A DNA stretch of 55,528 bases, taken from NCBI GenBank assembly GCA_029907705.1, contig JARYLJ010000010.1:1-55528 (forward strand). The letters run 5' to 3'. The notes beneath the pieces were generated by a model. The model was not told the DNA's origin, made no database searches, and worked only from the letters and a program-made list of their open reading frames with translations. Source of the DNA: Methanomicrobiales archaeon (GTDB taxonomy: Archaea; Halobacteriota; Methanomicrobia; Methanomicrobiales; JACTUA01). A program made the translations under genes and the position numbers. Shown here piece after piece: positions 43,274 to 55,386 of the stretch (positions are counted from its first letter, which is position 1; every line of letters begins with the position of its first letter).

Positions 43274-44503
43274 ATGTTCATGAAATTTATTAAAGATCCC
43301 GTGCATGGATTCGTCCAGGTACCTGTAGAAGAGGAGGGGCTCCTCGATTCTATGCCGGTCCAGCGGCTCAGGCATATCAGACAGCTTGGCTTTGCCTATC
43401 TCGTCTATCCGGGGGCAAACCACTCCAGGTTCGAGCATGCACTGGGAACGATGCACCTCGCCAGCATCGCATGTACGAGCTTTGGACTCGATGGCACGGA
43501 GTCGAGGGCGGTGGCGGCGGCGGCATTGCTCCATGATTGCGGTCATGGACCATTTTCGCATGCGACAGAGCCCCTGATGAAAGAATACCTCGACAGGGGA
43601 CACGAGGATATTTCAGCGTTGCTGGATGTAGAGGAGATCGGCAGGGCGCTCCTGAGGGCGGGTGTCGAGGAGGGGACATTGATCTCCATACTCGAGGGGA
43701 GGGACCCTCTCTCGGGTATCATCCACGGCGAGCTGGACGTGGACAGGATGGATTACCTGCTCAGGGATGCACATTATACGGGAGTACCCTATGGTACAGT
43801 CGATCCTCACCGGCTCATCCAGAGCTCACACCTGACGGATGGCGGAATCGTACTGGATGAGGGTGGTGTGAACGCAGCCGAGTCGCTCCTTATCGCCCGC
43901 ACCCTCATGAGGCCGGCGGTGTATCTACACCATGTGAGTCGGATCGCGAGCAGCATGCTATCCCTGGCGATCATGGATGAATGCAGGCAAGCTCAGGAAG
44001 GCCTGAGGAAGAGGCTTGAATCACTCATGGCGATGGACGATGCAGCGCTGATGTATACACTGCTGCACTCGGAGTCACAGATCTCCTCCTCCCTGGCAGC
44101 GATGCTGTACAGGAGACATCTCTATAAAAGAGCCCTGTATGTGGGTCCCGATCAGGTGGATACGACCCGGCTTCAGCGTGAAGGTGAATCCTTCGAGAAG
44201 AGCAGGCGGATCGCAGCGGCAATCGCTCTGGAGGCAGGTGTCGCCGAGACGCAGGTGCTGGTCGACATACCACGGATGCCCCCGGATCTTTCGTTGCCCA
44301 TCCTGGTCAGAAACAGACATGACGCGGTGCCCCTGGAGGACATCTCCCCCCTCGTCGATACGTTGAACCGCACACGGCGGGCGCAGTGGAGGGCCGGTGT
44401 CTATACCCTGCCAGAGATCAGGGATCGCGTGAGTCAGGCAGCGATGGAAGTGCTCCGAGTGAAGAGATTGACGAAACAGGATAGGTTATCAGTCGGTGCA
44501 TAG
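43274..44503 (+). CDS. HD-domain phosphohydrolase (SAMHD1/dGTPase-like)
   Basis: 409 residues. The metal-binding HD pattern is complete: H in NHSRFEHALG (residue 50), HDCGHGPFSHATEP (about 86, H-D and flanking His), and D in GELDVDRMDYLLRD (about 158). This is the layout of the SAMHD1/dGTPase-like HD group that removes triphosphate from dNTPs, though other nucleotides are possible. The C-terminal 200 residues are helical and less conserved. Start at ATG 43274 or 43280 (MKFIKDPVHG). Confidence 0.87.
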   Translation: MFMKFIKDPVHGFVQVPVEEEGLLDSMPVQRLRHIRQLGFAYLVYPGANHSRFEHALGTMHLASIACTSFGLDGTESRAVAAAALLHDCGHGPFSHATEPLMKEYLDRGHEDISALLDVEEIGRALLRAGVEEGTLISILEGRDPLSGIIHGELDVDRMDYLLRDAHYTGVPYGTVDPHRLIQSSHLTDGGIVLDEGGVNAAESLLIARTLMRPAVYLHHVSRIASSMLSLAIMDECRQAQEGLRKRLESLMAMDDAALMYTLLHSESQISSSLAAMLYRRHLYKRALYVGPDQVDTTRLQREGESFEKSRRIAAAIALEAGVAETQVLVDIPRMPPDLSLPILVRNRHDAVPLEDISPLVDTLNRTRRAQWRAGVYTLPEIRDRVSQAAMEVLRVKRLTKQDRLSVGA

Positions 44504-44514
44504 AGGATTGTACG

Positions 44515-45093
44515 ATGGAGAAGGAATTCGTCATCGGGATCTCGGGGGCGAGTGGCATCATTTATGCACATCGCATGCTGGAGATCCTTACACGGAGTGC
44601 ACAGGTGCATCTGATCATATCAGATGCCGCCCGAATCATCGCCTCAGTCGAGGGTGTGGAGCTCGAAGGCTTCGATGCCTGCTATTACAGCAATGACATG
44701 CTGACGGCAAAAATCGCGAGTGGCTCCTTCAGGCACGACGGCATGGCGATTGTGCCATGCAGCATGAAGACACTCGCCTCCATCGCCGCAGGGATCTCGG
44801 AGAGCCTGATCACCCGTGTGGCGGATGTCTCATTGAAGGAGAGGAGGAGGTGCATCCTTCTTCTCAGAGAGATGCCGTTCAATCGTATACATCTCAGGAA
44901 CATGCTGGATGCGAACGATGCAGGTGCCACAATCATGGTCGCGAGTCCTGGATTCTACCACAGGCCGGAGCAGATCTCGGATCTGGTGGACATGGTTGTT
45001 GCCCGCATCCTGAATCACCTTGGCGTCAACCATGATCTGGAGGTCGGATGGGAGGGAATGGATGAGGGAGCTCATCGAAGCACTGAGAAATGA
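44515..45093 (+). CDS. ubiX: Flavin prenyltransferase UbiX
   Basis: 192 residues with a flavodoxin-like fold. GISGASGIIYAHRML near residue 8 is the FMN-binding loop; IVPCSMKTLASIAAGI near residue 80 and FNRIHLRNM near 123 are further family motifs. It prenylates FMN to make the cofactor that UbiD needs. It overlaps the next gene, ubiD, by 32 bases, so the cofactor maker and user are made together. Confidence 0.92.
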   Translation: MEKEFVIGISGASGIIYAHRMLEILTRSAQVHLIISDAARIIASVEGVELEGFDACYYSNDMLTAKIASGSFRHDGMAIVPCSMKTLASIAAGISESLITRVADVSLKERRRCILLLREMPFNRIHLRNMLDANDAGATIMVASPGFYHRPEQISDLVDMVVARILNHLGVNHDLEVGWEGMDEGAHRSTEK

Positions 45094-46300
45094 AGGGCGT
45101 CTGGTGGACATAGAGGAGGAGTGCTCCCCTCATCTGGAGGCGCCAAAGATCGCGTCATCCAGCAGGACCGCTGTGCTCTTCCACAAAATTGGCGGTGCGC
45201 GGGCCGTGATGAACCTGATATCCGACAGGAGCACGCTGGCGCGTGCACTCAGGCTGAAGCCGGAGAAGATGGCAGAAAGTCTCTCCAGGGTACGAATGAA
45301 CGGGAGGGTGGTGGAAGATGGGCACATCGCCATGAAAAATCCCGATCTCGGCCAGATCCCCGTCATGAAGTTCTTCCCAGGCGAGGCGGGACCCTATATT
45401 ACAGCAGGGATTGTTTTCGCTGCCCTGGACGGTGTCCAGAATGCATCGGTCCATCGCATGCTGTTGATGGGCCGTAGGAAGGTGGTGGCACGTCTGGTGG
45501 AAGGGAGACACACGTACCTGATGCACAGGAAGGCGATAGAGCGGGGGGAGGTGCTGCCAGTCGCAGTCGCGATCGGTGTGCATCCGGCGGTGCTCTTTGC
45601 CTCATGCACGAGGGTCCCTTCTGGTATGGAGCTGGATTATGCGGCCGAGCTGCTCGGTGGTGAGGTGAGGGTGCGCGAATGTTCGAACGGGATAAAGGTA
45701 CCCGAGGCGGAGATCGTGCTCGAAGGTTTTATCGGCAGGGAGACAGCGGAGGAGGGGCCATTCGTAGATATCACGGGCACATACGATGTTGTCCGAAGGC
45801 AGCCGGTGATCGAGTTCACCGGGATGTACCTGAAGCAGGACTTCATTTACCACTCGATTCTGCCAGCCGGAGATGAGCACAGAATTCTGATGGGTGTACC
45901 TTACGAACCGAAGATATTCCGTGCAGTCGGCGAGGTGGCAGATGTGAGGAACGTGGTCCTCACACGAGGAGGATGCGGTTATTTCCATGCGGTGATACAG
46001 ATCAGGAAGCTCACGCAGGGGGATGGCAAGAACGCCATTATGGCTGCCTTTGCCTCCCATACCTCGCTCAAACATGTCGTCGTCGTTGACGAGGATATCA
46101 ATCCCTTCGATATTGAAGAGGTGGAGTACGCCATTGCCACCCGAGTAAGGGGAGACAGGGACATCCTGGTGGTAACGAACGTCAGGGGTTCATCTCTCGA
46201 TCCGACCAGGCTGGAGGATGGGACGAATGTGAAGGTCGGGGTAGACGCGACCATGATACTCGGGGAGGAGGCAGGTTTCAGAAGAGCAGGATGGGACTGA
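45062..46300 (+). CDS. UbiD-family decarboxylase, probable anhydromevalonate phosphate decarboxylase
   Basis: 412 residues. The UbiD fold shows in VARLVEGRHTYLMHRKA, PFVDITGTYDVVRRQPV near residue 240, and RGGCGYFHAVIQI near 305, which include the Glu/Arg residues that hold prenylated FMN. Placed between ubiX and the AcnX gene, it should be the anhydromevalonate-phosphate decarboxylase that makes isopentenyl phosphate in the archaeal mevalonate route. The start at 45062 (MRELIEALRNEG) is the family start. Confidence 0.87.
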   Translation: MRELIEALRNEGRLVDIEEECSPHLEAPKIASSSRTAVLFHKIGGARAVMNLISDRSTLARALRLKPEKMAESLSRVRMNGRVVEDGHIAMKNPDLGQIPVMKFFPGEAGPYITAGIVFAALDGVQNASVHRMLLMGRRKVVARLVEGRHTYLMHRKAIERGEVLPVAVAIGVHPAVLFASCTRVPSGMELDYAAELLGGEVRVRECSNGIKVPEAEIVLEGFIGRETAEEGPFVDITGTYDVVRRQPVIEFTGMYLKQDFIYHSILPAGDEHRILMGVPYEPKIFRAVGEVADVRNVVLTRGGCGYFHAVIQIRKLTQGDGKNAIMAAFASHTSLKHVVVVDEDINPFDIEEVEYAIATRVRGDRDILVVTNVRGSSLDPTRLEDGTNVKVGVDATMILGEEAGFRRAGWD

Positions 46301-47469
46301 GGATGAGGCTGGACCCCGAGGATCAGGCCATACTTCAGGGCGAGGAGGGCGAGACAAGGCAGAGGATGATGGAGATATTGATCGCACTCGGTAAGGTTTT
46401 CGGTGCAGAGGAGCTCATTCCCATATCTAGCGCGCAGGTGAGCGGGGCATCCTACAAGACGATCGGGGAGTGGGGACTCCGATGGCTCCAGAGCATCAAT
46501 GCCCGCGTGGCGGTCCCGACGATACTCAACCCTATCGGAATGCCGAGAGAAGGGTGGGAGGAGCATGGCATACACCGGGAGTTTGCAGAGAAGCAGCTCG
46601 CGATACTGGAGGCATATCGGAGGATGGGAGTGAAGCTGGAATGCACCTGCACACCATACTATATCCATTCCATTGGTTACGGCGACCATATCGCATGGGC
46701 AGAATCATCCGCCGTCATCTATGCCAATTCTGTGATCGGGGCCAGAACCAATCGGGAGGGTGGACCGAGTGCACTCGCGGCTGCGATCATCGGAAAAACC
46801 CCTTTCTATGGTCTACATATGATCGAGAAACGTACGCCTGTTCTGACGATAGAGATCGACGGAAACAAGGCGATTGACCGGAATGAAGATATATTCGGAG
46901 CGCTCGGTTATATCGCCGGAAGAAAGGCAGGCAACAGTGTGCCCATCTTCACCGGCATAAAGCCGAATAGGGATCAGCTGAAATCCATGGGCGCAGCGAT
47001 GGCCGCCACCGGTGCAGTCGGACTCTTCCATGTGGATGGGATCACACCGGAGTCGAGGATCTTCAAATACCGTGTTGACGCGCTGGAGAGGATCACAATA
47101 GAGGCGAAGGAAGTGGAGGAACTCTTCAGAAGCATGGATGTGGATGCGGTCGCGATCGGGTGTCCCCACTGCTCGGAGGATGAGCTCCTCCATATTGAGC
47201 GCCTGATGGGTGGCAAAAGTGTCAAAAAGCCATTGTACATTTTCGCCTCGCGCCATGTAATTGACAAAAGCAGACGGGTCGTAGAGAGGATCAGAAAGGC
47301 GGGCGGTTTTGTAATCGCCGATACCTGCATGGTGGTCTCTCCGATGCTGGAGCGATACAGAACGATCATGGTGAACAGCGGGAAGGCCCTCGCATATGTA
47401 CCGGATATGTGCGGGAGTATGGCGAGGCTCGGAAGCCTCGAGGATTGCATCAGGGAGGCGATCGGCTGA
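46291..47469 (+). CDS. AcnX large subunit, probable phosphomevalonate dehydratase
   Basis: 392 residues. An aconitase-X protein: LIPISSAQVSGASYKTIGE near residue 45, CTCTPYY near 112, GCPHCSEDEL near 290 and DTCMV near 345 with Cys ligands for a [4Fe-4S] cluster. In archaea the large and small AcnX subunits dehydrate mevalonate 5-phosphate to anhydromevalonate phosphate, the step before UbiD. The small subunit (DUF126 type) is not seen here. The start at 46291 overlaps the ubiD end by 10 bases; MRLDPEDQAIL four residues on could be the real start. Confidence 0.85.
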   Translation: MGLRMRLDPEDQAILQGEEGETRQRMMEILIALGKVFGAEELIPISSAQVSGASYKTIGEWGLRWLQSINARVAVPTILNPIGMPREGWEEHGIHREFAEKQLAILEAYRRMGVKLECTCTPYYIHSIGYGDHIAWAESSAVIYANSVIGARTNREGGPSALAAAIIGKTPFYGLHMIEKRTPVLTIEIDGNKAIDRNEDIFGALGYIAGRKAGNSVPIFTGIKPNRDQLKSMGAAMAATGAVGLFHVDGITPESRIFKYRVDALERITIEAKEVEELFRSMDVDAVAIGCPHCSEDELLHIERLMGGKSVKKPLYIFASRHVIDKSRRVVERIRKAGGFVIADTCMVVSPMLERYRTIMVNSGKALAYVPDMCGSMARLGSLEDCIREAIG

Positions 47470-47521
47470 ATGCAGGGGGCCGACATATGGGAGCTGCTCG
47501 CTGAAATCGGGGTTTGGAACG

Positions 47522-48751
47522 ATGGACTGGCGATCGATGGGTGAATGGAGATACGCAGTCCTCGTCATATTACTCACCCTTTGCACGATCGCATCGCTAT
47601 ATTTTGGCATTTTTCTGGGGACCGGCATTGCCTACACCCATCTCTATTACATTCCAATCGCACTGGCGGCAGTCTGGTACCAGAGGAGAGCGATCATTGC
47701 TGCCGCGTACCTCTTCGGTGTGCATCTCATACTCGAACTGATGAGGCAGGGGACCATCGACCCGGCGGTCCTTGTGAGGGGGGAGATAATGCTGCTGCTC
47801 GCTCTCATGCTCGGGATGGTCTCCGAGAACATCAGGAGGAGGGAGAAGACCACCAGTGAGTACCAGAGCTCCCTGCTGGTCAGAACTGCACCAGTCGAGA
47901 GGCGCTTGAGGACAAGATTCGACGGTTTCCGTGCATTTGTAAGGACGAACACCTCGCTGCAACGGATGGAGCATGACCGGGATCTGCATGGCCTGATCAC
48001 TGCCCTCCGTGACAGTGACGCGGAGATCAGGTATCAGGCCGCTTCGGCGCTGGGCAGGCTCAGGGATCAGGGCACGGCGGACGCACTGAAGGCGGCGATG
48101 TACGACAGGGATCCAGGGGTCAGATGGATCTCGGCTCATGCACTGGGGGGGATGGGTCGCCACGCGGTCTCCACCCTCCTCGAAGCCATGAAGGACGCAG
48201 ACCCCGAAGTCAGGTGGAGAGCGATTCTCGCCCTCGCCGAGGCTGGAGGGGCGGATGCGATCGATGAACTGATCGAATGTCTGAACGATGAAGATACATA
48301 TGTTCGCGAACGGGCCGCCATCGCGCTCGCTGGCATAGGCGAGCTGGCGATCACCGCCTGCATCCGTGCATTGAAGGATTCGCGCACTGAAGTCAGAAAA
48401 GGAGCCGTGCTCGCACTGGGAATATCGGGTGAACCATCGGCAATTCCCCAGCTGCTGGAATTCACGGTCTCAGAAGACCAGGAGATTGCAACAGCAGCGG
48501 AAAGAGCGTTGAGATATCAGAAAAGTGTGATGGGAAATGGCTGGGCCATTTCAGTGATCCGGCTGCTGAAGCAATCTGACACAGGTATCCGGAGGGGTGC
48601 GATAAGGACGATCGCGCATCTGAAGGTGAAAGAGGCGATCCCCGCACTCGAGGATCTCCTGCAGGAGGGAGACAGAGGCCTTTGTGAGGATGTGATGGAG
48701 GCGCTGAATGTTCTTCGTCGGTATGCGGGGTACAGGTATCCACGGGAATAA
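47522..48751 (+). CDS. Membrane protein with cytoplasmic HEAT repeats
   Basis: 409 residues. The N-terminal 110 residues hold about four hydrophobic segments (YAVLVILLTLCTIASLYFG; YIPIALAAVWYQ; AAAYLFGVHLILEL; IMLLLALMLGMVSE), resembling the membrane sensor part of some histidine kinases. The rest is a run of HEAT (PBS-lyase-like) repeats starting near residue 155: LITALRDSDAEIRYQAASAL, ALKAAMYDRDPGVRW, LLEAMKDADPEVRWRAILAL and so on. It has no kinase domain. A membrane scaffold or sensor is likely. Confidence 0.7.
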   Translation: MDWRSMGEWRYAVLVILLTLCTIASLYFGIFLGTGIAYTHLYYIPIALAAVWYQRRAIIAAAYLFGVHLILELMRQGTIDPAVLVRGEIMLLLALMLGMVSENIRRREKTTSEYQSSLLVRTAPVERRLRTRFDGFRAFVRTNTSLQRMEHDRDLHGLITALRDSDAEIRYQAASALGRLRDQGTADALKAAMYDRDPGVRWISAHALGGMGRHAVSTLLEAMKDADPEVRWRAILALAEAGGADAIDELIECLNDEDTYVRERAAIALAGIGELAITACIRALKDSRTEVRKGAVLALGISGEPSAIPQLLEFTVSEDQEIATAAERALRYQKSVMGNGWAISVIRLLKQSDTGIRRGAIRTIAHLKVKEAIPALEDLLQEGDRGLCEDVMEALNVLRRYAGYRYPRE

Positions 48752-48985
48752 TCTGTTAACCCCCTCCATGAGTCGATATCAAAAGATCACTTTTTTTACG
48801 ATCGACAAAAAGAGGAAAAATCTCTCTCCTGGAGTAAAAAGTGCTGTATATAGATTTTAAATATCAGTGATAATGACGTTTGTTCGAGAAAATGGGGGAT
48901 GAGCAGAACCGGATGAATCGTCGGGTCCAGAGGGGCTTTTATCTTTGATTTGCGATTTCATGAAGATTAAACGGAGACAGAATGC

Positions 48986-49933
48986 ATGAAAGGCGATAGC
49001 GCATCGACCGGTGTCAGAGATGCCCGAATCAACCAATTTTGCAAATTGCCATCAAAGAGTAACCATACGATATGTGGGGCGTTCATGATGGTAGTGTCCA
49101 GAGAAGGCTCGGTCGGGGCGAATGAGGTGATGATATATCCCGAGCTGATATATGAACAAAATTTTTGCCTTGCTCTCTCAAAGGTAAGAGGTGTGTTCGG
49201 AACGCACGATTACTCGCTCTCCATCGACAGGCAGGGGATGAGGATACGGGTGGAGCGGTCGAGCGGGGTCTTCAGGTATATCAGGGAGACAGAAGGGAAG
49301 CGGGTGGAGAAGGTGCTCTCATCTCCATATGCGAGGATACTGCTTCATCCGGTGGAGCCGGTCAATCTGCCCAAAAAACTGACCAGATTGCTCGAGATAG
49401 AGTTCGATCCAGTTGTTATGGGGCCGAATTCAGAGAAGACGTTCTATCTGAAGTTCCCTATTGAGATCGGCATTTTTCTGGAGGAAGACGGCATGAGAGA
49501 TGTGATCGATCTCGTCTCCATTGCCCCACCGAAGTTCTCGCTCTACGGGAACCCGAGATCAGGCGTGATCACCAGATACTTTCGCAGCAATACATACTTC
49601 GACATCCCGGAAGTGGAACCCTGCCTCGAAGGTGTCCTGAAGCTTACGGTGAAGAATCCGCTCAGGGAGAACGTCGAAGTCTCCAGAGTCGTGCTCGAGG
49701 GGCACAGCATGATGCTCTACTTCGGGAGGTTCGCCTCGATGATCGCATACCTGCAGATCGTGAACTCGCAGACGGGTGAGACGTATTTCATGGACGAACC
49801 TCTGGAGCTCGGGATGGAGCGGGCGATCAAGCTGTACAAGGTGCGAAGGATGCCTGTGGCAGGCCTCGAGCGTGCCATCATGATAGGCGGAATCGAGCAT
49901 TCCGTCTTCACGATGGAGTGGGGCCTCACATGA
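48986..49933 (+). CDS. DUF432 family protein
   Basis: 315 residues. Mostly beta, with RIRVERSSGVFRYIRETEG near residue 90, LLHPVEPVNLPKKLTRL near 120 and FYLKFPIEIGIFLEE near 152, which fit DUF432, an archaeal family often next to or fused to MscS channels. It has no known activity. The ATG at 48986 has GGAG 9 bases upstream. Family proteins normally begin around MIYPELIYEQN (ATG at 49130), so the true start may be there. Its stop overlaps the MscS start as ATGA. Confidence 0.75.
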   Translation: MKGDSASTGVRDARINQFCKLPSKSNHTICGAFMMVVSREGSVGANEVMIYPELIYEQNFCLALSKVRGVFGTHDYSLSIDRQGMRIRVERSSGVFRYIRETEGKRVEKVLSSPYARILLHPVEPVNLPKKLTRLLEIEFDPVVMGPNSEKTFYLKFPIEIGIFLEEDGMRDVIDLVSIAPPKFSLYGNPRSGVITRYFRSNTYFDIPEVEPCLEGVLKLTVKNPLRENVEVSRVVLEGHSMMLYFGRFASMIAYLQIVNSQTGETYFMDEPLELGMERAIKLYKVRRMPVAGLERAIMIGGIEHSVFTMEWGLT

Positions 49934-50748
49934 TCCTCGACACCATCCTGTACAACGATGTAACGCTGCGGGATCTCCTGTTAGTTCTCGTCATCCTCCT
50001 CGTATTTGCGTTCATTGCGAAGGTCATCACACTGAACCTGAAGAAGTCCCTCATCGACAAGATGAGAAAGAGCGAACTGGAGCTACTGCTGAAGATCGTC
50101 AATTACGGGATCCTGCTACTGGCGGTGATCGTCTCATTCCCGATGCTGAGCATTGACCTGTCGGGGCTCCTTGTCGCAGGGGGTTTCGGTGCACTCGTCA
50201 TCGGGTTCGCAAGTCAGAGCGTGGTGACAAATCTCGTATCGGGACTCTTCCTGATCATCGAGAGACCGGTGAAGATCGGGGATCAGGTGAACATCGGGGG
50301 GGTGGAGGGGTATGTGGAAGACATCAGGGTACTCTCCACCATCATGAGGGGGTATGATGGGGTTTACGTGAGGGTCCCCAATGAAAAGGTGTTCACATCT
50401 ACCATCCTGAATTATGTCGCGGATGTGGCGCGAATATTCGAGTATAAGATAGGTATCGCGTACGGGTCGGATGCAGAAAAAGCGCTGAATATCGTCAGGG
50501 GGGTGATCGAAGCCCATCCCATCGCGCTCAAGTACCCTGCCCCCGTCGTCTTCGTCGATGAACTCGGGGATTCAAGCGTGAATATCGTCGCGAGGATCTG
50601 GGCCCCCAGTATCGAATGGTTCAGCGTCAGGAGCGAACTCCTCCTCCAGATCAAACAGGCTCTCGACAAAGGGGGGATCGAGATACCGTTCCCGCAGCGT
50701 GTGATCTGGTTCGGGGAAAGGGAAACCAGGAACGCTCCGGAGGGCTGA
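49930..50748 (+). CDS. MscS-type mechanosensitive channel
   Basis: 272 residues. Three membrane helices: about 15-38, 60-78 and 85-110. The last (LVAGGFGALVIGFASQSVVTNLVSGLFL) is the pore helix TM3 with its Gly/Ala packing. The cytoplasmic beta domain follows (VKIGDQVNIGGVEGYVEDI, VRVPNEKVFTSTILNY). It releases ions and solutes on sudden membrane tension, such as a drop in outside osmolarity. It shares a start/stop overlap with the DUF432 gene, so the two are made together. Confidence 0.9.
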   Translation: MILDTILYNDVTLRDLLLVLVILLVFAFIAKVITLNLKKSLIDKMRKSELELLLKIVNYGILLLAVIVSFPMLSIDLSGLLVAGGFGALVIGFASQSVVTNLVSGLFLIIERPVKIGDQVNIGGVEGYVEDIRVLSTIMRGYDGVYVRVPNEKVFTSTILNYVADVARIFEYKIGIAYGSDAEKALNIVRGVIEAHPIALKYPAPVVFVDELGDSSVNIVARIWAPSIEWFSVRSELLLQIKQALDKGGIEIPFPQRVIWFGERETRNAPEG

Positions 50749-50757
50749 AGGATTCGG

Positions 50758-50853
50758 ATGCGTTACTCCCAGAAGGACTACAAAGGCAGTCTATGGGATT
50801 ATTTCATCATCCCGCAGGACAGGATAGAGAGCAGGCAGGGGTCGTATGAGTGA
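50758..50853 (+). CDS. Possible 31-residue microprotein
   Basis: An ATG frame encoding 31 residues, rich in aromatic and charged side chains (starts MRYSQKDYKGSLWDYF, ends RQGSYE). It lies in the 97-base gap after the MscS gene, with GAAGGA upstream, and overlaps the start of the HEAT gene by 8 bases. The tight fit argues for a real coupled gene, but it is too short for confidence and no family is known. Confidence 0.4.
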   Translation: MRYSQKDYKGSLWDYFIIPQDRIESRQGSYE

Positions 50854-51367
50854 GGAGGGGAACAGAGAGGGTATTCCAGGAGATGTGGAGAATATACAGA
50901 GGTTTATAGGGATGCTCGGTTCAGATTCGATCGAAGTTCGCAGGGCGGCCGAGGACGCGCTCGTCGGCATGGGCGCGGTGGCGATAGATCCTCTCATGGA
51001 AATCCTTCGGACCCATCCGGATCGCGAACTGCTCTGGTATATCGCACGTACGCTCTCCAGAATCGGGGAACCTTCCATCGAACCCCTCGTCCAGTTACTC
51101 AGGAGCGACGCAGGGGACGAATCGAAGAGATATGCGGCCGCTGCTCTTGCAGAGATGAGGGAACCCCCGATCAGGAGGCTGGTCAGTATGCTGGGTGATC
51201 GAGATCCATCCATTCGCGGATATGCATCCCTCATCCTCTGCCGGATAGGGGAACCAGCAATGCATGCGCTCAAGGAGGCACAGCATGATGAAGACGAGAT
51301 GAGAAGAAGGTGTGCGCGGACGACACTGCTCCGCCTGCAGCTCGACGAGAAAGGGACGAAGCAATAA
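50846..51367 (+). CDS. HEAT-repeat (PBS-lyase-like) protein
   Basis: 173 residues. Soluble helical repeats: FIGMLGSDSIEVRRAAEDAL, LMEILRTHPDRELLWYIA, LVQLLRSDAGDESKRYAAAAL and LVSMLGDRDPSIRGYASLIL, about five repeats. Such proteins act as protein-binding scaffolds. It is the last gene of the DUF432-MscS block. The ATG at 50846 gives the natural start (MSEEGNREGIPG). Confidence 0.75.
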   Translation: MSEEGNREGIPGDVENIQRFIGMLGSDSIEVRRAAEDALVGMGAVAIDPLMEILRTHPDRELLWYIARTLSRIGEPSIEPLVQLLRSDAGDESKRYAAAALAEMREPPIRRLVSMLGDRDPSIRGYASLILCRIGEPAMHALKEAQHDEDEMRRRCARTTLLRLQLDEKGTKQ

Positions 51368-51499
51368 ACTCCAGTAAAATACCAAATGCAAGGTACATGC
51401 AATTCTTCGATTAATCATATTCTTCGAATTCCAGGGAATTGCCCGGTGCGGGTGGAGTTCACGGGAACGATTGGTATTCGCATCAAATGGTGGGCATTC

Positions 51500-51512
51500 G
51501 ATACATTAAAAC
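51500..51512 (+). promoter_or_regulatory. TATA box of polC
   Basis: GATACATTAAAAC lies about 28 bases before the ATG at 51535, fitting a leaderless start and arguing against the longer frame from 51439. Confidence 0.5.
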
Positions 51513-51534
51513 TTCAGCTCCCCAATCTGTGAGC

Positions 51535-54500
51535 ATGCAGCTCTCGCCCTCGATGCAGAGATACTTCCTCTCACTCGAAGAGGAGCTTGGAAGGACGATC
51601 GAGGTGGCGAAGAAGGCCCGATCGGTGGGACTGGACCCCAGAGAGGATGTGGAGATACCGCTCGCGAGCGACCTGGCCGACAGAGTGGAGGCACTCCTCT
51701 CGATTAGGGGCCTGGCACAACGTATCAGGGAGCTGGAGGGTCGGATGTCGCGCGAGGAGATCGCCCTTTTCATTGGCGAGGATTTTGTTCATCGCAGATT
51801 CGGAGAGGAGGGCAGGGATCAGGTACTGGATCATTCGATCAGGACAGCGATGGCGATCCTGACCGAAGGAGTCGTCGCCGCACCCACCGAAGGTATCGCG
51901 AAGGCTGGTACCGGAAAAAACGACGATGGAACTGAGTATCTGAAGATCTATTATGCAGGGCCCATAAGAAGCGCCGGAGGCACGGCCCAGGCGCTCTCCG
52001 TCCTTGTCGGGGATTATGTTCGGCATCTTCTCGGAATGAGCCGTTACAGGCCGAGGGAAGAAGAGATACAGCGTTATATAGAGGAGATCAGGCTGTACAA
52101 CTCAAGGCACAATCTTCAGTACATGCCTACGGAGGGTGAGATGCGGCTCATCGTGAGCAACTGTCCAGTCTGCATCGATGGCGAGGCCACAGAGGAGGAG
52201 GAGGTGAGCGGTTACCGCAATCTGGAGCGGATCGAGACGAATGCGGTCAGGGGTGGTATGGCGCTGGTGATCTCAGAGGGAATCGCGCTGAAGGCGCCGA
52301 AGCTCCAGAAGTATGTTAAAAAGCTGGGGATGGATGGTTGGGACTGGCTGAAAGATCTTGGGCTGTCCGGTGCGCAGAGCGAGGAGAACGGCGGGATAAA
52401 ACCGAAGGACAAGTACCTGAAGGATATCATCGCCGGGAGACCAGTCTTCGCCCATCCGATGCGAAAAGGGGGATTCCGGCTCAGGTACGGGCGATCGAGG
52501 AACAGTGGATTTGCCGCTGTGGGTTTGAATCCTGCCACGATGAAACTCCTCGGTGGATTCCTCGCCGTGGGGACGCAGATGAAGCTGGAGCGGCCGGGCA
52601 AGGCAGCGGGTATTGTTCCGGTGGACTCCATCGAAGGGCCAACGATCAGACTGAAAAACGGGGACGTCTTTCGGATCGATTCGCTGGAGCAGGCGGAGCG
52701 TTACGAGAAGGAGATCGATATCATCCTGGATGTGGGGGAGATCCTGGTCAGTTACGGCGAATTTCTGGAGAACAACCATCCCCTCATGCCTGCAGGGTAT
52801 TCGGACGAATGGTGGCGTCTCGAAGGGGGTGCTGGTAAACCGCGGGATGAACTGGAGGCGATCGAGGCGGCACTGGAGGGTGCATATTTGCACCCATCGT
52901 GGACCTATATGTGGGAGGATCTCACAGTTGAAGAGATCGAAGAACTGGCCGGTCTGATCACAGCGAAGGGACGGATAGAGGAGGGAAGACTCTCAATCCA
53001 GTACGATGTCAGGGCGAAGGAGATACTCGAGGAGCTCCTTGTGCCGCATCGAGTCATCGGTGATAAAATCGTTCTGGAAGAATTCTACTGTCTTCTCGCA
53101 TGCCTCGGGTTGAGCCTGACATTGAAGAAGAAATCCACATGGGAGGGTATTGCCCGGGGGATCTCCCCGCTGGAACTCATCACAAGGCTGAGTGATTTCA
53201 GAATCAGGGGGAGAGCGGGCACCAGAATAGGCGGGCGGATGGGCCGACCGGGAAAGTCGAAACCACGGGAGATGAGCCCCCCTCCACATACGCTCTTTCC
53301 GCTCGGAAATGCAGGAGGTTCCAGGCGTTCGTTCCAGGAGGCCCAGACGCACTCAGCGAAGGAGAACGGGATTACAGGGACAATCGAGATCGAAGTCGGG
53401 GAGAGGAGATGCCCGGAGTGCGGCTCCATCACTTTCATGAACAGATGCAGATGCGGGCACCATACTCTGCCTGTCTTCAGATGCCCACGCTGCCATCAGG
53501 AGGTGACAGGGAGTAAATGCTCCCGGTGTCATCTCACACCTGTCTGTGTGATGAAGACCACAGTGAATGTAAAATCAGAATATGCAGCGGCGCTGGAGCG
53601 CCTCCAGATGAGGGATTCCAGTATCTCCCTGCTGAAGGGCGTGAAGGGTCTGATGTCGAAGGAGAGAGCAGTGGAACCTATTGAAAAGGGCATCCTGCGT
53701 GCGCGCCATGGCCTATTCGTCTTCAAGGATGGCACCATCAGATACGACATGATCGATCTTCCTCTTACACATTTCAGACCGCTTGAGGTGGGTGTCGATA
53801 TTGAGCGGCTGAAGTTGCTGGGATACACCAGCGATATCCACGGCGCACCTCTTGAGAGGGAGGATCAGGTGCTGGAGTTGAAGGTCCAGGACGTCCTCGT
53901 CTCGGAGAGTTGCGGGGATTACCTGGTGAAGGTCTCGGGTTTTTTGGACGAGCTGCTCGAGAAGTGCTACGGGCTCCCTCCTCATTACCGGGCCTCGAGA
54001 AAAGAAGATCTGGTGGGGCAACTCCTCGTGGGGCTCGCACCCCACACCAGCGCCGGTGTAATAGGGAGACTGATCGGATTCACGAGGGCAAACGTGGGGT
54101 ACGCGCACCCGTATTTCCATGCAGCAAAGAGGAGAAACTGTTTCTGGGGAGAGACGGAGATAGAGGTGAACAACGGCAGGGGCTGGCAGAGAGTACCTAT
54201 CAAAAGGTTTGTGACAGAGAACTTCGATCTCAGCACGCCGGCACTCGATCGTATAGGGACTTACTACTCCTCTCCCAGGCAGCCCTTTTACATCAGGAGC
54301 ATCACGAACGAGGGAATGATCAGGACGAGGAGGATCACCGCCGTTTCAGTGCACCCCTCGCCCGCGCATCTGATCAGGTTCGAGACGGAGCGCGGGAGAT
54401 CTGTCGTCGTCTCACCAGAGCATACGATGCTCGTATGGGACACCGCTTATTTGAGAAAGATCATGGCGATGGAGTTAAAGGCAGGCGACCGCGTTCCCGT

Positions 54501-55386
54501 CTTCTCAGGCCATTCAGTGATGACCGAGCGGATCACCGCCCGAGAGATCGTTCCTTCAGTGGATAATTGTATCTACTGTCTGACCGTGCAGGAGGAGCAC
54601 ACGATGGAGGCGAACGGGATCTTCACGGGGCAGTGCGATGGAGACGAGGACTGCGTGATGCTCCTGCTCGACTGCCTGCTGAACTTCTCGAAATCCTTTC
54701 TCCCCGAGACGAGGGGAGGCACGATGGATGCCCCCCTTGTGATCACCAGCCGGATCGATCCGACCGAGATCGACAAGGAGAGCCATAATCTGGATGTAGG
54801 AAGCTCCTATCCCCTTGAACTCTATGAGGGCTCCCTGAGATATGCGCATCCGAAGGAGCTGGAGCCGCTCATCGAAAGGGTGGAGAAGCGTTTGAATACC
54901 CCTGTGGCATACGAGGGGTTCCTCTATACACACGACACCACCGACATCTCTGCGGGCCCCCTAGAGTCCACCTACACTGAGATGGAATCGATGCAGGAGA
55001 AGCTGGATATGATGCTCGGACTGGCGAAGCGCATCAGGGCGGTGGACGCAGACGATGTCGCGGAGCGTGTCCTGAATACCCACTTCATTCCCGACATGGT
55101 GGGAAACCTCCGTGCTTTCTCGAACCAGAGTGTGCGATGCTCGAAGTGCAATCAGAAGTACCGCCGCATCCCACTGGCAGGGAAGTGCCTGAAGTGCGGC
55201 GGAAATATTATCCCGACGGTGCATGAGGCATCGGTCAGGAAGTACCTCGAGGTCTCGAGGCAGATCTGCCGTGAGCACAGGGTGAGCAGCTATACGCAGC
55301 AGCGTATCGACGCAATAGAGATGGCGATTCAGGCGACCTTCGGGGAGGAGAGAGAGAAACAGATGGGTCTGGCCGATTTCATGTGA
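51535..55386 (+). CDS. polC: DNA polymerase II (PolD) large subunit DP2, interrupted by a mini-intein
   Basis: 1283 residues before splicing, 1118 after. DP2 is the catalytic subunit of the archaeal replicative polymerase [26 protein letters not shown] is near residue 140 and [14 protein letters not shown] near 325. A zinc-binding region (CPECGS, CRCGHH, CPRCHQ, CSRCHL) lies near 625-670, and a second Cys set is near the C-terminus ([14 protein letters not shown]). The active-site sequence [13 protein letters not shown] is split by the intein at residues 869-1033, just before the catalytic Asp residues. The DP1 subunit is not in the window. Start at 51535 ([11 protein letters not shown]) chosen from family start and TATA spacing. 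Confidence 0.95.
54139..54633 (+). other. Mini-intein in the PolC active site (no homing endonuclease)
   Basis: 165 residues encoded in frame. It begins with Cys ([10 protein letters not shown], block A), has SPEHTMLV (block B, with the conserved His), ends with [20 protein letters not shown] (blocks F/G), and is followed by Cys of the host protein (CDGDED). There is no endonuclease domain between the splicing blocks, so it is a mini-intein. The last residue is Gln rather than Asn, as known for the Pyrococcus abyssi PolII intein, and the residue before it is Gly rather than the usual His. Confidence 0.88.

Follow-up and report, generated by a model that had tools for sequence, protein, structure and literature searches.

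In the genome (1.79 Mb) of an archaeon of the order Methanomicrobiales, genes for HEAT-repeat proteins lie on both sides of DUF432 and a gene for a mechanosensitive channel of the MscS type. This raises the question of whether channel, DUF432 and HEAT proteins belong to one larger membrane-tension assembly, as the original prediction proposed, or whether their genes are neighbors for other reasons. The window, i.e., the whole stretch of 55,528 nucleotides analyzed, encodes in the same (+) direction a membrane HEAT protein (mHEAT, 47522-48751), DUF432 (49193-49933), an MscS protein of a DUF432-linked subclass (49930-50748), a 31-codon open reading frame (50758-50853) and sHEAT, a soluble HEAT protein (50846-51367); next downstream is DP2, the large subunit of PolD (51535-55386, also +; PF03833, PF24844 and PF24846). 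The stop of DUF432 lies at 49933; its overlap with MscS is 16 nt for a start of the latter at GTG 49918 and 4 nt for one at ATG 49930, and the 31-codon frame overlaps sHEAT by 8 nt. The frames, domains and overlaps of the predicted packed four-frame block were thus confirmed. The start proposed for DUF432, position 48986, is probably too early, since homologues begin at GTG 49193.

The DUF432 protein matches PF04254 over profile positions 1-123 of 123, with an E-value of 5.3e-35 and 120.8 bits against a curated cut-off of 21. Longer frames are possible from 49088 or 48986; in the alignments, homologues align from VFGTHDY, at GTG 49193, which is most likely the start, and 48986-49192 is probably a leader. 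The DNA at 48700-49000 is AT-rich relative to its flanks and, downstream of 48752, may contain an internal promoter. The gap between mHEAT and DUF432 in the window amounts to at least 234 nt, compared to a median of 53 nt in 31 loci, where all intergenic spacings, that of the window included, use the in-frame start giving the tightest fit, so that medians lean tight. The AlphaFold model of DUF432 (pLDDT 92.6, pTM 0.89) is nearly all beta, and we confidently predict an all-beta protein, presumably located in the cytosol. A sequence search of the PDB returned no solved relative at E<=1, and Foldseek none among solved structures at E<=0.001 (best E 0.036); the best VIA-align match reached a Z of 5.2 and an rmsd of 3.1 over 61 residues only. 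Scanning the genome contigs with the single DUF432 sequence did not recover relatives, which were found with the alignment A1 as query.

Of the 188 distinct loci, 175 encode a DUF432 with the C-terminal tail M[ED]xG. The idea that this motif merely encodes the ribosome-binding site of MscS was disfavored, as the tail persists (as MEWG) in three loci without adjacent MscS (L146, L160 and L164). Because it is kept there, we prefer to explain the conservation of M[ED]xG by a constraint at the protein level.

In the MscS protein, the membrane, beta and C-terminal domains (PF21088, 2e-8; PF00924, 3e-22; PF21082, 2e-20) all score above cut-off. The closest sequence in the PDB is E. coli MscS (chain 2vv5, E 2.8e-38, residues 16-261), which has the same Pfam domains. 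A search of plasmid DNA with the MscS query gave no match.

To follow the pairing of the two genes, we compared 188 distinct DUF432 loci, which remained from 267 after removal of near-identical DUF432 copies and of short loci without MscS. DUF432 is followed by MscS on the same strand in 183 of them, window included. No MscS was called in the other five; contig ends truncate two of these (L184 and L261), and the remaining three (L146, L160 and L164) are of Archaeoglobus type and have DUF432 without adjacent MscS. The commonest offsets between the two frames, measured to the first in-frame start, are -16, -4, -13 and 0 nt. DUF432-MscS pairs also occur in records titled Deltaproteobacteria and Cloacimonadota (L166 and L173), reflecting either transfer or mis-binning.

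The same association is seen at the level of whole genomes. In the order sample, DUF432 was found in 151 of 199 genomes, and a match to the MscS of the window at E<=1e-40 in 148 of the 151 DUF432-positive but in none of the 48 DUF432-negative genomes, with the counts read by hand and the limit chosen once the values were known; the margin around it is narrow at one point (weakest positive G092 at 1.9e-41, strongest negative G099 at 9.3e-38). The three positive genomes missing the match are G134 (59% complete), G142 and G174, the last with DUF432 at a contig edge. The 48 negative genomes contain more distant MscS proteins or none; several of them are incomplete, and one (G038) was scored negative though its contig ends inside an MscS gene adjoining sHEAT. 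In the phylum sample, DUF432 is present in 183 of 392 genomes; MscS is adjacent in all of the best-scoring 30 loci (1.5 kb per side), and no HEAT gene was called in these. A control search with DUF432 also matched Methanosarcina acetivorans, a genetically tractable methanogen. The pair without HEAT genes also occurs in Archaeoglobi, ANME and other lineages. The pairing named in the original prediction was therefore borne out by both loci and genomes, and a tight two-gene unit of DUF432 and MscS is strongly supported.

We propose that the two proteins are produced jointly, their frames overlapping or abutting. To judge from solved MscS structures, the channel would be a heptameric MscS-type valve; DUF432 would bind its cytoplasmic domain and may adjust assembly or gating of the channel at osmotic downshift. 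The complete reading, in which DUF432 binds or adjusts the channel of this two-gene unit and the HEAT proteins form a separate module, is the one we favor, at a level slightly above even. Work on MscS channels usually treats them as products of a single gene, and we know of no description of E. coli MscS that includes a dedicated cytosolic partner from an overlapping gene. FtsZ is a tubulin-like protein and is not known as a dedicated, co-inherited partner of MscS. Nonetheless, E. coli FtsZ is described as binding the MscS cytoplasmic domain, which sets a precedent for a cytosolic binder (PMC4440785). The window protein belongs by sequence to Pfam DUF432 (PF04254), an entry without function. 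In the open-access literature, a scope outside which most subscription journals lie, DUF432 was not found as a whole word, nor did any paper there combine HEAT repeats and archaea with the mechanosensitive channel MscS; among the open-access matches listed for looser queries, none treats such an arrangement by its title or the start of its abstract.

Alternatively, DUF432 might act apart from the channel in the same stress response, e.g., as a ligand-binding sensor, and be merely co-regulated and co-inherited with MscS. The three Archaeoglobus-type loci, which retain DUF432 with an intact tail and lack an adjacent MscS, fit such a separate role. A mean-field coupling analysis of the 183 pairs, too shallow (Neff 114) to decide between the readings, did not favor inter-protein contacts: inter-protein pairs fell below their share among the top scores, and the top inter-protein values exceeded those of three within-group permutations, which shared ancestry could explain. 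Against a separate role speak the nearly complete co-occurrence with a single MscS subtype and the overlap of the frames, which are typical of physical partners although not proof, and we consider such a role an unlikely alternative that deserves to be kept in view. DUF432 might also be an assembly or insertion chaperone that is made just before the channel and is gone from the finished one. It precedes MscS in 183 of 183 pairs as counted, with frames that mostly overlap or abut, as expected for such a factor; however, no significant relative among solved structures suggests this role, and a chaperone appears rather improbable to us.

Binding of DUF432 to the channel, as we propose it, leaves the question of the HEAT proteins. 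Both mHEAT (E 1.6e-42) and sHEAT (E 1.4e-17) match HEAT_2, in common with PBS-lyase HEAT-like proteins, and both lie far below the NCBIfam phycobilin-lyase cut-offs (mHEAT 57.9 bits vs 300 for NblB and 51 vs 330 for CpcE; sHEAT 27.5 bits vs 220 for CpcF). The AlphaFold2 model of mHEAT (mean pLDDT 85.6, pTM 0.61) shows three long helices at the N-terminus, then a flexible linker modelled at low confidence and finally a C-terminal HEAT solenoid, in line with the membrane protein with HEAT repeats that had been predicted upstream. Its N-terminal region has a marginal similarity to DUF4118 (E 0.02, below cut-off). An N-terminal membrane domain of the mHEAT type also heads at least one histidine-kinase-type protein with HATPase_c (L096:742-1845) and is found in short proteins, e.g., in L090, where a HisKA match is at most weak (E 0.16); it may therefore be a shared sensor domain. 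In five loci (L055, L137, L147, L158 and L317) the upstream HEAT protein, of ~250-340 residues, has no called membrane region, and its membrane anchor hence looks dispensable. The sHEAT proteins are a family with their own invariant positions; at E<=1e-33 they were found in 54 of the 294 phylum-sample genomes, and all 54 are Methanomicrobiales, a restriction that sets the group apart from HEAT_2/PBS-lyase HEAT-like proteins at large.

The 31-codon frame between MscS and sHEAT is probably not a gene. Neither Pfam nor NCBIfam matched it at E<=0.01, the other loci compared yielded only chance-level matches, and it occupies the widest MscS-sHEAT gap of 61 loci (97 nt vs a median of -1 nt).

HEAT genes are present around the pair in many relatives; the refuting outcome named with the original prediction, HEAT genes missing at this place from every relative, did not occur. 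The order mHEAT-DUF432-MscS-sHEAT occurs in 31 of the 188 distinct loci and DUF432-MscS-sHEAT-mHEAT in 10; a further 20 have sHEAT without mHEAT and one, ending there, mHEAT without sHEAT. Neither HEAT gene was called in 126 loci, some of them cut short: certain loci, L035, L157, L184 and L261 among others, comprise only 1.5 kb per side or lie at a contig edge, and HEAT absence at these is not always real. As a reading of the genome scan gives ~13 HEAT-bearing frames in this genome, a four-gene order in 31 of 188 loci exceeds chance. Where MscS is followed by sHEAT, in 61 of the 188 loci, their spacing has a median of -1 nt and is at most 30 nt in 58 of 61, again with the tightest-fitting starts. 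Since these frames nearly touch, MscS and sHEAT are probably co-translated where they are neighbors.

The recurrence of the four-gene order had been counted in favor of a HEAT-channel assembly. This argument was withdrawn once a longer block with PolD appeared, in which, in several families, the four genes have HD, UbiX, UbiD and AcnX ahead of them and PolD behind. In the window this block (43274-55386) reads HD, UbiX, UbiD, AcnX, mHEAT, (DUF432, MscS), sHEAT and PolD large subunit, and it is retained whole or partly in several Methanomicrobiales families. The AcnX and UbiD-type genes presumably belong to the archaeal mevalonate route. The PolD large subunit itself carries an in-frame insert of ~165 residues (54139-54633) directly before CDGDEDC, which we take to be mini-intein-like; in Methanocorpusculum-type loci (e.g., L071) the corresponding junction is without insert.

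We therefore asked with which neighbor the HEAT genes travel. Usually, sHEAT lies upstream of PolD, at a distance of at most 30 nt in 25 of 53 block loci. In 40 chosen PolD loci, a non-random set picked mainly for having DUF432 elsewhere or not at all and including one locus too short to judge (L306), sHEAT is upstream of PolD in 32 (30 near, 2 at ~9 kb), often preceded by mHEAT, and neither DUF432 nor MscS was found in any of the 40. Of the distinct sHEAT loci, 48 lie between MscS and PolD, 26 precede PolD without an MscS ahead of them, and 3 follow MscS with neither PolD nor mHEAT behind them; the remaining classes involve contig ends or wider gaps.

Genome-wide positions were compared in 95 genomes of at most 100 contigs each with usable sHEAT coordinates. 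In 82 of these, sHEAT lies within 6 kb of PolD (G009, G030 and G086, which have no PolD place among the matches listed, count in the 95 and not in the 82), and in 31 it lies just downstream of DUF432-MscS. In 45 of the 95 genomes sHEAT is by PolD with DUF432-MscS elsewhere, while the reverse was seen in 3. In G021 and G068, sHEAT stays by DUF432-MscS with PolD elsewhere; in G003, the distance from PolD may stem from the end of a contig. Within this set, G100 and G169 are labelled DUF432-less only since their DUF432 places are not among the matches listed, and the place for G002 was taken from fetched loci. Left out were G001, G031 and G134, whose PolD places were unusable, as well as genomes in which the best match for sHEAT ranked below those listed, many of Methanocorpusculum type. 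Twelve fetched Methanocorpusculum-type loci outside the 95 all have MscS, sHEAT and PolD together, and would thus raise the share of sHEAT found with DUF432.

In a tree of DUF432-MscS, block and stand-alone states require 8 changes, two of them depending on L035 and L157, which contig ends truncate; the tree is a quick one with SH-aLRT support only, comprises 122 of 183 rows after removal of near copies and defines neither the root nor the direction of change. Stand-alone loci of the groups f2 and f4 lie within one clade, and those of Methanoregula type within two further clades. As stand-alone loci fall in several clades, the neighborhood changed repeatedly.

Could mHEAT and sHEAT nonetheless scaffold DUF432-MscS, making a tension-sensing complex of four proteins at least where lineages have kept the block intact? 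The recurring four-gene order, the succession of MscS and sHEAT in 61 loci with overlapping or nearly touching frames, and the position of sHEAT by DUF432-MscS and away from PolD in G021 and G068 would all be compatible with such a scaffold, as would the higher frequency of sHEAT (E<=1e-33, read by hand) in DUF432-positive genomes (145/151) than in DUF432-negative ones (32/48). However, the linkage belongs to the longer block with PolD, AcnX and UbiD, the 45 genomes with sHEAT by PolD and the channel pair elsewhere stand against 3 with the reverse, and two thirds of the genomes without a DUF432 match, i.e., the 32 of 48, retain sHEAT. In addition, DUF432-MscS-sHEAT is found without mHEAT in 15 distinct loci of Methanocorpusculum or Methanocalculaceae type, the other 4 mHEAT-less loci of this class (L109, L240, L243 and L245) being cut by contig ends. 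We thus regard a HEAT scaffold as quite doubtful. Gene order lends no support to an assembly of HEAT proteins and channel, since the HEAT genes usually remain next to PolD where the channel pair has another location or is lacking, and the predicted membrane-tension assembly, which had also included the 31-codon frame, was not upheld; from the proposed comparison of gene order across archaea, the tight DUF432-MscS pair and the recurrence of the four-gene order remain, with the HEAT genes falling within the PolD block. A combined version, in which DUF432 serves an archaeal subclass of MscS as a dedicated auxiliary subunit and sHEAT and mHEAT dock onto it in intact-block lineages to give a four-protein valve, appears very improbable.

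The HEAT genes appear instead to be a separate module adjoining PolD in Methanomicrobiales, between which DUF432-MscS happens to lie in certain lineages. Given the tight spacing, the greater frequency of sHEAT with DUF432 and the arrangement in G021 and G068, sHEAT may have a lineage-specific role with the channel, although none is required.

Gene order at this locus reflects a long shared block, and the linkage of the HEAT genes is therefore not to be read as a complex. What emerges is an MscS subclass with a co-inherited partner. For DUF432, this assigns a likely context, and an MscS subclass inherited with one small beta protein allows the idea of an accessory subunit for MscS to be tested.
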